In this document: positions 4,652-34,450 of the stretch, one piece after another
Position numbering within the stretch: position 1 is the stretch's first letter
How the letters are laid out: each line of letters starts with the position of its first letter
Assembly: GCA_013298775.1 (NCBI GenBank)
Contig: JAAFIV010000046.1
Location: 1-35,260, forward strand
Origin: Ignavibacteria bacterium
GTDB taxonomy: Bacteria > Bacteroidota > Ignavibacteria > Kapaibacteriales > UBA4661
Length of the DNA stretch: 35,260 nucleotides
Reading direction: 5' to 3'
The notes under the pieces: generated by a model
What the model was told of the DNA's origin: nothing
Seen by the model: only the letters and a program-made list of their open reading frames with translations
The model's database searches: none
Translations under genes and position numbers: made by a program

Positions 4652-4685
4652 CAAAGAATTTTAGCTGAAAAATATAAAACCTGAT

Positions 4686-4763
4686 AGTGGCACAGACATT
4701 CTTGTCTGTGAGTGTTGGTGCGGGCTTCAAGCGGAAAACACAGACAGAAATGTCTGTGCCACT
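4686..4763 (+). repeat. family 1 hairpin repeat, copy a
   Basis: A ~78-bp unit: left arm AGTGGCACAGACATTCTTGT, a 25-30-base centre containing GTTGGTGCGGGCTTCAAGCG, and the complementary right arm ending in TGTCTGTGCCACT. It lies between the toxin remnant and the YfhO-like gene. Confidence 0.9.
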
Positions 4764-4839
4764 AAGCATTTTTAAAAATCATTGAACAACCTTTCTACAA
4801 CACGCTCACCCCCATTTTGTTTGTCTTCTCCACGTAATC

Positions 4840-7278: not shown

Positions 7279-7348
7279 CCTTTTTCGTGTAAAATACGTC
7301 TAACCTTCAATAGATCTTAATCCAGACTAGCTATTTTGCTCTTCAAAT

Positions 7349-7426
7349 AGTGGCACAGACATTCTTGTCTGTGAGTGTTGGCGCGAGTTTCAAGCGAAAA
7401 ACACAGGCAAGAATGTCTGTGCCACT
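7349..7426 (+). repeat. family 1 hairpin repeat, copy b
   Basis: Same 78-bp hairpin: arms beginning AGTGGCACAGACATTC and ending GAATGTCTGTGCCACT. It lies in the 220-base gap between the YfhO-like gene and cysS, which shows no other gene. Confidence 0.9.
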
Positions 7427-7499
7427 ACAACATTTTCAAGTTTATCCATGTAATTTTTGAGCATTCCTAAATTTGCTCAAGAACTTCTTTCCCAGCACT

Positions 7500-8978: not shown

Positions 8979-9021
8979 ATGCTGGATTTCACCATAGTCT
9001 GTATGTGAGAATTTCTTCAAT

Positions 9022-9099
9022 GGTGGCACAGACATTCTTGTCTGTGAGTATTAGTGCGGGTTCCAGGCGATAAACACAGACAAGAATGTCTGTGCCACT
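9022..9099 (+). repeat. family 1 hairpin repeat, copy c
   Basis: Same hairpin with first base G instead of A (GGTGGCACAGACATTC) and right arm GAATGTCTGTGCCACT. It occupies the spacer between cysS and the TPR gene. Confidence 0.9.
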
Positions 9100-9132
9100 A
9101 CTTGACATTTTTCGTAAACGTACTCAAATCTT

Positions 9133-11034: not shown

Positions 11035-11102
11035 GGAGAAGGATGAAATTTGAAGTTTTAGGTTCGGATGAAATCTCTAGAAAGCAGGCAAAATCTGTCC
11101 TC

Positions 11103-11180
11103 AGTGGCTTGAGACTTCTTGTCTGTGTTCTTCGCCTGAACCCCGCACTAATTCTCGCAGACAGGAAGTCTCAAGCCACT
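11103..11180 (-). repeat. family 1 hairpin repeat, copy d (B-type arms)
   Basis: The same hairpin in a variant form: left arm AGTGGCTTGAGACTTCTTGT and right arm GGAAGTCTCAAGCCACT. Both arms differ from the common type in a compensating way, so pairing is kept. The centre is the reverse complement of the other copies, so the element is inverted. It lies between the convergent TPR and rnz genes. Confidence 0.85.
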
Positions 11181-11226
11181 ATTTGGTTTTAGTTTTTTCA
11201 ATTGGATACAGCAAGCATCAAAAATC

Positions 11227-19280: not shown

Positions 19281-19335
19281 GCGGGGTTGGAAGGAATTTT
19301 GAAAGAATTATTTTATGGTGCAAAATGTTTTCAAT

Positions 19336-19413
19336 AGTGGCACAGACATTCCTGTCTGTGAGTATTGGCGCAGGTTTCAGGTGAATAACACAGACAGGAA
19401 TGTCTGTGCCACT
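19336..19413 (+). repeat. family 1 hairpin repeat, copy e
   Basis: Arms AGTGGCACAGACATTCCTGT and ACAGGAATGTCTGTGCCACT: a T-to-C change in the left arm is matched by an A-to-G change in the right. The right flank is GAAGCCTGATTT, shared with copies g, h and i. It lies between nuoL and the Uma2 gene. Confidence 0.9.
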
Positions 19414-19463
19414 GAAGCCTGATTTTATCTGTTTTTTAGAAGTCTTGTTCTCAAAACATTCAA

Positions 19464-23972: not shown

Positions 23973-24000
23973 GATGCTTGGCAATCATTTCAACCTCAAT

Positions 24001-24078
24001 AGTGGCACAGACATTCTTGTCTGTGAATGTTCGTGCTGAATTCGTATAGAAATCACAGACAAGAATGTCTGTGCCACT
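24001..24078 (+). repeat. family 1 hairpin repeat, copy g
   Basis: Arms AGTGGCACAGACATTCTTGT and ACAAGAATGTCTGTGCCACT, with a centre more diverged than in other copies and right flank GAAGCCTGATTT. It lies between the S1 terminator and the O-antigen ligase-like gene. Confidence 0.9.
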
Positions 24079-24132
24079 GAAGCCTGATTTGATAGCACTT
24101 ACAAGAGCTTGGTCGTGCTGAGGAGGTGAAGC

Positions 24133-26193: not shown

Positions 26194-26213
26194 CGTGAAC
26201 TTTTTATTTTAGC

Positions 26214-26359
26214 AACTCACCTTACGCATAAGACCCTCACCCAACCCTCTCCCAGAGGGAGAGGGCTTCAGAGCTATTCTCCACTAACCCTCGCCCTCTG
26301 GGAGAGGGTCTCGCGCAGCGAGGGGTGAGGGCGGCGCGAGGGTGTGCGTAAGGTGAGTT
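26214..26359. repeat. MITE-like palindromic element
   Basis: A 146-bp element with 15-bp terminal inverted repeats (AACTCACCTTACGCA at the left, its complement at the right). Internal GC-rich arms contain ACCCTCTCCCAGAGGGAGAG and the matching CCCTCTGGGAGAGGGT. Flanking AGC on both sides (26211-26213 and 26360-26362) may be a 3-bp target duplication. No open frame of note is inside. It lies in the 730-base gap between rpsA and the next gene. Confidence 0.75.
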
Positions 26360-26368
26360 AGCAAGAGA

Positions 26369-26433: not shown

Positions 26434-26649
26434 TATTTCCTCTGTTTCTCGGCAAACAAAAATTTGGGCAAGTCCCTTCCTCTGTTTATCTTTGTTCAAC
26501 GCTTTCAAAGCGGCTTCAATACGAGCGCGATACGCCTTCGCGAACACATGTGTCGCGAAGCTGGGGATGAGATGAAAATTATTTGGGGCGTTCCTTTTTC
26601 GTTTGTATCTTTCTTGCTCACTTGAATTCACGTCATCTTTTCCGTTCAA
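26407..26649 (-). CDS. doubtful small basic protein
   Basis: An 80-residue open frame with a basic, helical centre (KAYRARIEAALKALNKDKQR). Its 3' end runs into the 13-bp tandem repeat and it crosses a near-perfect palindrome at 26536-26560. I recognise no family and see no promoter or good ribosome-binding site. It is listed only because it is the sole open frame of protein-like composition in this spacer; it may well be non-coding. Confidence 0.2.
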   Translation of the reverse strand: MNGKDDVNSSEQERYKRKRNAPNNFHLIPSFATHVFAKAYRARIEAALKALNKDKQRKGLAQIFVCRETEEIKLDFAGRL

Positions 26650-26686
26650 ATATTGCTCTTCAATGTTCGTGCGATGACATCAAAAC

Positions 26687-26771
26687 TATCGGTGAATACC
26701 TACTATCGGTGAATACCTACTATCGGTGAATACCTACTATCGGTGAATACCTACTATCGGTGAATACCTAT
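26687..26771 (+). repeat. 17-bp perfect tandem repeat, five copies, ending in a start codon
   Basis: Five units of TATCGGTGAATACCTAC stand head to tail (starting 26687, 26704, 26721, 26738, 26755). The last unit ends in CCTAT instead of CCTAC, and the final AT with the next G is the ATG at 26770 of the membrane-protein gene. Each unit contains GGTGA, which in the last unit lies at a ribosome-binding distance from the ATG. Confidence 0.95.
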
Positions 26772-28392
26772 GAATTTCTTTGATATCTACTACGCCATTG
26801 TCCTTAGTTTACGCCGTAATCGCTTTTGGTTGGCGTTCGCTATTGTGTTCGCGGGCATTATGCTGTGCGACGTGATAGCAGCATTCTTACCGCTTCCAAT
26901 GGAAGAATGGGCAAGGCTTGGTGTGCTGGATATGTCGTTTTCTCCCGAAGTGTGGATGGGATTAGTAAGCATGATTGTCGGAACGCTTGTGGTCATTATC
27001 ACAATTGCTTCTCAAGTTGTTCCGCGCATGATTGATGTGTACATGAACGACTGGCGCAGTCTGCTCTACGCGTGGTTGCTGGTGTTGTCCACCATTCATG
27101 CTATTGTTGTGAGTAAATTTATTGGCGTGCGCCCGTCCAGCGCGGTGTACAATACCTTTTTTCTTTTGCCCGCGAACTTGCTCTTTGCCTTTCCCTACAT
27201 CTTCTACATCTTGGCAATGACCAAGCCATCAACGATTATTCGCCGCATTTACAAAGAAAATTTCGCACTGCTGGGACGCATGAGTACGCCAAATGTGCGC
27301 CGTTGGCTGAAAAAACGCGAGAATACATCTATGGCACAAGGTGAGTTATTTCGCTACTTGAATCAGCTTGACAACATCATGTATTTTGTGTCGTTCAAGG
27401 AACTGCAAGCGCAAATTATCATCAACATTAGTGCGCTCCTTCGAGAATATATCCGCATCAAAGAACTGTTTCACGGGGAATTTTTCGCGCTCAGTCATCA
27501 GGTGGTTACGGACATTTCCTTTCAAACATTAGAAATTCAATTCCGCGAAATTGAGGAAACACAAACCTTCTACGAACTCAAGTGTTTGCGCATCATGGGC
27601 GATGCTTACAACAAATGCTTACAGGATAATGCCTTCGATTTGGCTTCCCTCTGCGGTTCGGAACTGAACGTCATTGGTGAAGCCGTGATGGAGCAAGGCG
27701 ATGATTCTCTCATGGAATTCGTGCTGGTACGCTTCAATACCATGATGCGTTCAGCGTTTAAGCATGGTTTGTCGAATCAGGAAGCGCGTAATCTCTACAA
27801 TCTCGCCTTTCATTACAGCACCTACATCAAGCAGCTTGCTCTCAACGACCGCAAAGACCTCGTGAAGAAGGCAATTCGTTACTTGAAAATGTACGGCTCG
27901 GAAGTATTTCGCAATAGCCAAACCCAGCAATCGCTTGCGTTCATCAACGATGTATTTACCTTTGAGATGAAAGAAGTGCTGGTGCTGATTGCCGAACTCG
28001 GCTGGGAACAAGACCTCCAACGCCTTTTGCTCTGCGAACTCTTGGAAATGGACGACTTGCTCGTCAAGTCTGGCACGGGCGCGATGGCGCGCGATGCCGC
28101 GTTTAATTCTGGTGTACGCACCTTGCAAGCGGGTCTCGCGCTGTTCTATATTTTCCAGCAAGAGTACGAACTTGCCTCTATGGTGGTGGATGATATTTCC
28201 GAAGATTTACAAGGTTCCGACCCCATGAAAGCTGCCGGCATGGTAGATGTTATCTGCAAACGCTTGGAAAATGCGCAACCAACGTTCTGGGAAGACACCG
28301 ACCGAGGCAACAACAACATCTATTATTCGCACCACAAGGCGCAAATACCTGAGTTGCAGTTTATGTTGTTGGAGAAAATTGATTTGGGCTAA
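26770..28392 (+). CDS. DUF2254-like membrane protein
   Basis: A 540-residue protein. The N-terminal ~155 residues contain four membrane segments (about 16-40, 62-85, 98-118, 128-150). The stretch MGLVSMIVGTLVVIITIASQVVPRMIDVYMNDW recalls DUF2254 proteins, which have a similar hydrophobic entry followed by a PR-x-x-D/N-x-x-x-x-D/N-W box (recall, not a search). The remainder (about 170-540) is soluble, all-helical and possibly repeat-like (for example QLDNIMYFVSFKELQAQIII and DLVKKAIRYLKMYGSEVF). No enzyme motif is seen. It is the first gene after a repeat-rich spacer and is translated from the last unit of the 17-bp array. Function unknown. Confidence 0.65.
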   Translation: MNFFDIYYAIVLSLRRNRFWLAFAIVFAGIMLCDVIAAFLPLPMEEWARLGVLDMSFSPEVWMGLVSMIVGTLVVIITIASQVVPRMIDVYMNDWRSLLYAWLLVLSTIHAIVVSKFIGVRPSSAVYNTFFLLPANLLFAFPYIFYILAMTKPSTIIRRIYKENFALLGRMSTPNVRRWLKKRENTSMAQGELFRYLNQLDNIMYFVSFKELQAQIIINISALLREYIRIKELFHGEFFALSHQVVTDISFQTLEIQFREIEETQTFYELKCLRIMGDAYNKCLQDNAFDLASLCGSELNVIGEAVMEQGDDSLMEFVLVRFNTMMRSAFKHGLSNQEARNLYNLAFHYSTYIKQLALNDRKDLVKKAIRYLKMYGSEVFRNSQTQQSLAFINDVFTFEMKEVLVLIAELGWEQDLQRLLLCELLEMDDLLVKSGTGAMARDAAFNSGVRTLQAGLALFYIFQQEYELASMVVDDISEDLQGSDPMKAAGMVDVICKRLENAQPTFWEDTDRGNNNIYYSHHKAQIPELQFMLLEKIDLG

Positions 28393-31523: not shown

Positions 31524-31668
31524 TGTACACGACAAAACTTTTTTCATAGTAGCACAGACATTCTTGTCTGTGAGTGTTGGTGCGGGGTTCAAGCAACGAA
31601 CACAGACAAGAAGTCTCAAGCCACTGAAGCCTGATTTAATGCGCTTTTCAGAGGTTTTGTCGTGTACA
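31524..31668. repeat. nested element: family 1 hairpin (copy h) inside a 15-bp inverted repeat
   Basis: Outer perfect 15-bp arms TGTACACGACAAAAC (31524-31538) and its complement (31654-31668) flank family 1 copy h (31548-31625). Copy h has an A-type left arm (AGTAGCACAGACATTC) but a B-type right arm (GAAGTCTCAAGCCACT, as in copy d), so its own stem is broken in the middle. The right flank GAAGCCTGATTT is as in copies e and g. Confidence 0.85.
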
Positions 31669-34186: not shown

Positions 34187-34327
34187 CACACAACAAACGT
34201 CGATTTGAAGCCCTTGTTAAGCTGTTTTTGCTTTGCAGGGGTTTTCTGTTTTTTTGAGTTGTATCGTTTTCAAAATTCTTCCGAAGTAGTAGATAAAAAT
34301 CTTGTAAAGTGCATGGAATCAGGCTTC

Positions 34328-34406
34328 AGTAGCACAGACATTCTTGTCTGTGTTTAATTGCTTGAATCCTGCACCAACACTCACAGACAAGAATGTCTGT
34401 GCCACT
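34328..34406 (-). repeat. family 1 hairpin repeat, copy i
   Basis: Arms AGTAGCACAGACATTCTTGT and ACAAGAATGTCTGTGCCACT. The centre and the flank AATCAGGCTTC (left side) show it lies in the reverse orientation to most copies. It occupies the spacer between tRNA-Val and the riboflavin synthase gene. Confidence 0.9.
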
Positions 34407-34450
34407 ACATGGTTTTGTTGAGTGCTTGGAAATCTTTCACAAGTTACCCC

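Follow-up and report, generated by a model that had tools for sequence, protein, structure and literature searches.

A perfect 17-bp tandem array that ends at a start codon in an Ignavibacteria genome, probably a recent minisatellite

Introduction

Bacterial variable-number tandem repeat (VNTR, or minisatellite) loci consist of short, near-identical units arranged head to tail, and phase-variable or contingency loci carry tandem repeats in their 5′ leaders, where copy number could alter expression. Direct repeats of the heptamer TAACTGA located before start codons have also been described, and a translational role has been proposed for them in the available part of the article (MacGregor 2015, PMC4679880). 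As far as the accessible text of Schoelmerich et al. 2023 (PMC9879509) goes, tandem repeats are likewise a feature of Borgs, archaeal elements in which the units are nearly all unique, lineage-specific and apparently grown from local sequence. In a literature search on tandem repeats in connection with Shine-Dalgarno sequences, the nearest works were that of MacGregor and engineering work in Bacillus, in which, according to the available part of the report, a gain in output came from leaders bearing two or more engineered ribosome sites (PMC9723656). A search of the same literature for intergenic tandem repeats in Ignavibacteria found nothing.

Here we analyse a stretch of 35,260 nucleotides from an Ignavibacteria bacterium (assembly GCA_013298775.1, contig JAAFIV010000046.1; hereafter the window), in which five perfect 17-bp units lead directly into the start codon of a gene. 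As in bacterial VNTR loci, the units are short and lie head to tail, and the site holds a single copy in the sister species; the window array differs from such loci in ending exactly at a start codon. It resembles phase-variable loci in that its copy number could alter expression, but nothing here points to a surface antigen. With the TAACTGA repeats it shares the arrangement of direct repeats a few nucleotides before a start, and some Bacteroidetes are among the hosts of the heptamer; in the available part of that work, however, one heptamer recurs at many genes (PMC4679880), whereas here a 17-bp unit lacking TAACTGA stands at one gene. Among the literature examined, the landscape most like the one reported below appears to be that of the Borgs, judging from the accessible text (PMC9879509), although those are archaeal elements and the arrays studied here lie, far more sparsely, on contigs of a bacterial genome. 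The reading that we favour, with a probability of roughly 0.73, is that the array represents a recent, probably near-neutral minisatellite that arose from the native start region through a lineage-specific duplication process.

Structure of the Array and the Downstream Gene

Tandem Repeats Finder places the array at 26685-26770, with 5.1 copies, a 100% match and a score of 172, the second-ranked array of the window scoring 62. Its five units are identical and follow one another head to tail without indels (Table 1), which bears out the five perfect repeats claimed in the earlier note, although the array begins two bases before position 26687, where that note had put its start. The same note had ascribed the start codon to a one-base change at the end of the fifth unit, whereas CCTACT and CCTATG differ at two bases; it was right about the spacing, since GGTGA ends 6 nt before the ATG and before each of the four ACTs. 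At 85 bp, the whole array fits inside an ordinary short read. Exact matches to ACTATCGGTGAATACCT in the 5.19-Mb assembly of the same genome (95 contigs) number five, all of them within the array, and the reversed-pattern control gives none. The array can hardly be a product of chance, because no array passing the filter used throughout (period of at least 8, at least 2.5 copies, match of at least 90%, no indels) appeared in sequence resampled once from the first 835 kb of the genome. A CRISPR array was ruled out, as the units abut without spacers between them.

Table 1. Features at the array locus and repeat copies elsewhere in the window (window coordinates)
Feature	Position	Strand	Basis or remark
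7-bp direct repeat TTAGCAA bordering the dispersed element	26209..26215, 26358..26364
Dispersed element with inverted ends CTCACCTTACGC ... GCGTAAGGTGAG	26216..26357
Predicted Bacteroidota-type promoter, TTTG-N20-TATCTTTG	26463..26494	+	Pattern search, genus comparison, published consensus
Tandem array, five perfect ACTATCGGTGAATACCT units	26685..26769	+	Tandem Repeats Finder and exact matching
Array units	26685..26701, 26702..26718, 26719..26735, 26736..26752, 26753..26769	+	Each 17 bp
Fifth unit	26753..26769	+	Alignment counterpart of the single unit of the sister species; sole unit with a start codon next to it
In-frame TGA, two codons before the ATG	26761..26763	+	Codon reading TGA ATA CCT ATG
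Gene for a 540-aa protein, DUF2254-like only below threshold (N-terminal part)	26770..28392	+	ORF, Pfam search
Copies of the ~80-120-bp dispersed repeat	about 4685..4767, 7348..7436, 9014..9112, 11086..11181, 19326..19430, 24000..24090, 31547..31667, 34317..34407		In the window

The ATG of the downstream ORF lies directly 3′ of the fifth unit. This start call is sound because an in-frame TGA precedes it and the ATG is kept in the sister species; owing to the same TGA, the protein cannot begin farther up the array in that frame. The product is probably a membrane protein, as suggested by the resemblance of its N-terminal part, below the cut-off, to DUF2254 (E 0.1), a family of predicted membrane proteins. 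The other sub-threshold resemblance is to DUF805 (E 0.07); no Pfam family matched above the cut-off, and with a limit of E 1 neither NCBIfam nor the PDB sequences returned a match. Homologues are present in 11 of the 99 genomes searched, including all eight of the genus, the window's own among them. The named relatives are Candidatus Kapaibacterium and Ignavibacteria metagenome bins, and the farther homologues, at 39-42% identity, come from bins labelled as SAR324, Deltaproteobacteria and a cyanobacterium.

Promoter and Leader

The promoter predicted for this gene begins 307 bp 5′ of the ATG and agrees with the Bacteroidetes -33/-7 consensus, TTTG/TANNTTTG, as given in the available part of the published description (PMC6847099). 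The pattern TTTGN19-21TATCTTTG occurs at 20 places of the window's own genome against one for the reversed control. Moreover, TTTG-N20-TATCTTTG is found upstream of the gene in seven of the eight same-genus leaders and TATCTTTG alone in all eight, at distances of 87 to 283 bp from the start, while the one leader of another genus that was examined (L013) has neither. Given a promoter at this distance, the array should sit inside the mRNA leader, which would start a few nucleotides past the predicted promoter, run for about 270 nt and have the array at its 3′ end. A scan for sigma-70-type promoters between 26000 and 27000 returned a single weak site, on the opposite strand, with a mean of 1.5 in shuffled sequence, and Rfam at gathering scores recognised only a tRNA in the window. 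Folding of the leader RNA was slightly less stable than that of the average shuffle (z of +0.59 and +0.78), and the sister leader, examined likewise, folded no better than its shuffles.

The Single Unit of the Sister Species

The nearest species compared (L018, RDXM01000094.1) has a gene product with 94% protein identity, and at its locus one diverged unit, ATTATCGGTAAATAACT, precedes the same ATG. The MAFFT alignment opens a 68-bp gap there, equal to four units, give or take the placement of the edge bases. The recent origin of the repeats postulated in the earlier note is thus borne out by a five-to-one difference in copy number at the same site. By eye, the unit was not seen in the other six same-genus leaders. 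The simplest history would be expansion from one copy to five in the lineage of the window; a possible alternative is that the sister lost four copies, though five perfectly identical units speak for recent growth. The single unit of the sister provides a clean before-and-after pair for examining how a start region tolerates duplication.

Tandem Arrays Across the Genome

The sample of the window's own genome (G000) comprised 80 stretches (L031-L070 and L111-L150) plus the window, 1,633,132 bp in all or about one third of the genome, and yielded 116 arrays (56 in non-coding and 60 in coding DNA) built from 115 different units. Non-coding units are mostly of 9-23 bp, 25 of the 56 non-coding arrays are perfect, and the array of the window ranks fourth by score among all 56. 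The sister species (G005, L071-L090) contributed 11 non-coding and 6 coding arrays in 286,043 bp. Per Mb of sampled non-coding DNA, this amounts to about 300 arrays in the species of the window and about 340 in the sister; in the window's genome the density is uneven, as the first 102 kb of sampled non-coding DNA hold 41 of the 56 non-coding arrays and the next 84 kb hold 15. Another species of the genus (G006) had no array in 300,000 bp of one contig. Two genomes from other families of the order had no non-coding and two coding arrays in 400,000 bp (G012) and no array in 69,199 bp (G016), and the remaining five species of the genus were sampled only at the flanks of the homologues of the 26770-28392 gene. 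The array described here matters mainly as a pointer to this situation, that is, to dense arrays in the window's species and its sister and none in 300 kb of G006.

Units divisible by three make up 53 of the 60 coding arrays and 21 of the 56 non-coding ones, a bias that fits the residue of selection against frameshifts on a process making units of all lengths. The corresponding figures for Borgs, in the accessible text of the report, are all in-gene units and 14-38% of non-coding units (PMC9879509). As for perfect regions of at least 50 nt with at least three units, the 1.63 Mb of the window's genome contain eight, against 20-76 per Borg genome of 0.6-1.1 Mb in the same text, so that the density here is about one tenth of that in Borgs (PMC9879509).

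Array sites were compared between the two species only where both flanks were found in the other one. This applied to 2 of the 116 arrays in one direction and to 4 of the 17 in the other, giving five array sites at four places, one of which was found both ways; no site has more than one matching unit in the partner species, which at one place carries a different array. There, L043 3690-3777 of the window's genome and L074 8903-8949 of the sister occupy the same in-gene place with different 15-bp units, which suggests independent expansions at a site that may be tolerant.

Loss of MutS was considered as a cause of the arrays and rejected, MutS_V being present in all eight same-genus genomes. 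G001, G002, G006 and G007 each have a match to a DinB-type polymerase (PF00817), for which G000, G005, G003 and G004 gave none; its absence is a possible correlate of array load, which among these genomes was sampled in G000, G005 and G006.

Position of Arrays Relative to Genes

The location of arrays was assessed against random placement in non-coding DNA and against crude gene calls (ORFs of at least 100 codons, taken from the longest start), among which some starts are misplaced. Nine of the 56 non-coding arrays of the window's genome lie within 12 nt of a start, with 6.33 expected and values as high in 91 of 500 simulations. A first, smaller sample of the same genome had given 8 of 41 (4.55 expected; 38 of 400 simulations as high), and the sister species gave 3 of 11 (1.27 expected; 51 of 400). 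These figures leave room for a mild excess at starts. Enrichment is found near stops instead: 25 of the 56 fall no farther than 40 nt from one, against 14.25 expected, and none of 500 simulations reached that number. The design specific to start codons that the earlier note implied is therefore not apparent, as arrays occur genome-wide without significant enrichment at starts, and a repeat system directed to start codons is likewise at odds with the near absence of shared units. Individual arrays do lie at starts. In the sister species, the last repeated base of an array (L079 3970-4025) is the A of an ATG, as in the window. A 23-bp array of the window's genome (L039 12058-12143) lies before another gene and has an ATG in its consensus unit, the called start falling in the last part of the array.

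GGTGA and the Tuning of Translation

The first alternative to a near-neutral minisatellite is that the units are stand-by ribosome sites or leader spacers, whose gain or loss would adjust the translation of the membrane protein. This idea draws on the position of perfect units directly at the ATG and, by prediction, inside the transcribed leader, as well as on the precedent of the Bacillus multi-site leaders, though in the available part of that work each site could start translation (PMC9723656). Stand-by Shine-Dalgarno sites would require that the repeated motif be the ribosome-binding motif of the organism, and this is not what the start regions indicate. At 735 ATG starts of long ORFs in the window's genome, GGTGA occurs 7 times at -20 to -4 and 7 times at the control position of -50 to -34, whereas GGAG occurs 65 times against 7 and AGGA 59 against 12; GTGA is found 22 times against 41, and a first sample of 392 starts had given 3 against 6 for GGTGA. 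GGAG stands before about one tenth of the starts, and the use of Shine-Dalgarno sequences in this genome looks limited, with GGTGA taking no visible part in it. The proposal of the earlier note that GGTGA acts as a ribosome site is further weakened by the sister unit, which reads GGTAA. No 16S gene, the source of the anti-Shine-Dalgarno sequence, was found in any of the eight same-genus bins.

The 148 starts of the sister species speak slightly for tuning, with GTGA at 9 against 3 and GGTGA at 3 against 1 (start versus control). Despite this signal, GGTGA was rejected as a ribosome motif of the window's own genome on the 735-start counts. Within the last 30 nt of the same-genus leaders, GGTGA is present in three of eight, namely those of the window, of L020, near the start, and of the sister, where it lies about 28 nt upstream of the start and outside the unit. 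In view of the missing enrichment, the GGTAA of the sister unit, the lack of special RNA structure in the leader and the lack of a significant concentration of arrays at starts, tuning by copy number is unlikely.

Each of units 1-4 can also be read as GTG AAT ACC TAC TAT CGG TGA, the stop overlapping the GTG of the next unit. A chain of such mini-ORFs was set aside since, by eye, the unit of the sister has no GTG.

Origin of the Array

A recent minisatellite in the leader would have formed as follows. The 17-bp stretch would already have stood at the end of the leader, as the one copy of the sister suggests, and would have been duplicated head to tail up to five copies, by slippage or unequal exchange as we infer. 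Growth would have halted at the ATG, as expected if extension past it changed the reading frame or the start itself. The start codon would be faced by the fifth unit alone, the other four adding 68 nt to the predicted leader, and the array would presumably have little effect on expression. The underlying cause would be a lineage-wide tendency to short tandem duplications, with non-coding units of 9-23 bp; such duplications would be tolerated chiefly in non-coding DNA and, within genes, where the unit length is divisible by three. This account draws on the one-unit locus of the sister, the frame bias, the number of unrelated arrays, the sites with at most one matching unit in the partner species, the lack of significant enrichment at starts and a leader that folds less stably than the average shuffle. 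Against neutrality counts the presence of a perfect array, fourth by score among the 56 non-coding ones, directly at a translation start, the kind of place least likely to be neutral; the L079 array ending at the A of an ATG, GGTGA in three of eight leaders, the GTGA counts of the sister and the uneven density also count against the minisatellite reading.

A broader proposal combines a duplication process with a function. An unusually active process in a Kapaibacterium-like group, to which the window's species and the sister would both belong, would turn local stretches of 9-23 bp into private minisatellites, and unit number in leaders would become a fast-changing setting of translation. We regard this as quite improbable; if true, the leader arrays here and at a few other genes would set the translation of the gene downstream.

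It could also be that an RNA- or DNA-binding regulator recognises each unit, five copies strengthening the control. Identical sites at a fixed 17-bp spacing are consistent with such an array, and a role as regulator sites has been suggested for heptamer repeats lying shortly before starts in the available part of MacGregor's text (PMC4679880), but no second site in the genome matches the unit exactly, inspection of the six other same-genus leaders did not reveal it, and the other sampled arrays have other units, so that a common reader protein is unlikely. Taken together, this makes a binding array very improbable. Finally, an assembly error affecting the copy number or the whole array of the contig is scarcely credible: assemblies often collapse or miscount tandem repeats, as the accessible Borg text states (PMC9879509), but the array is within ordinary short-read length, and arrays number 116 in the sampled part of this genome and 17 in that of the sister, against zero in the 300 kb of G006.

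Other Repeats in the Window

Upstream of the predicted promoter lies a dispersed element with inverted ends, bordered by a 7-bp direct repeat (Table 1). Its end sequence has 38 occurrences in the genome at up to three mismatches, and the sister alignment holds nothing like the element at that site; on these features it looks like a small transposed element. In addition, a dispersed repeat of about 80-120 bp is present at no fewer than eight places of the window and in many other stretches of the window's genome and of the sister species.
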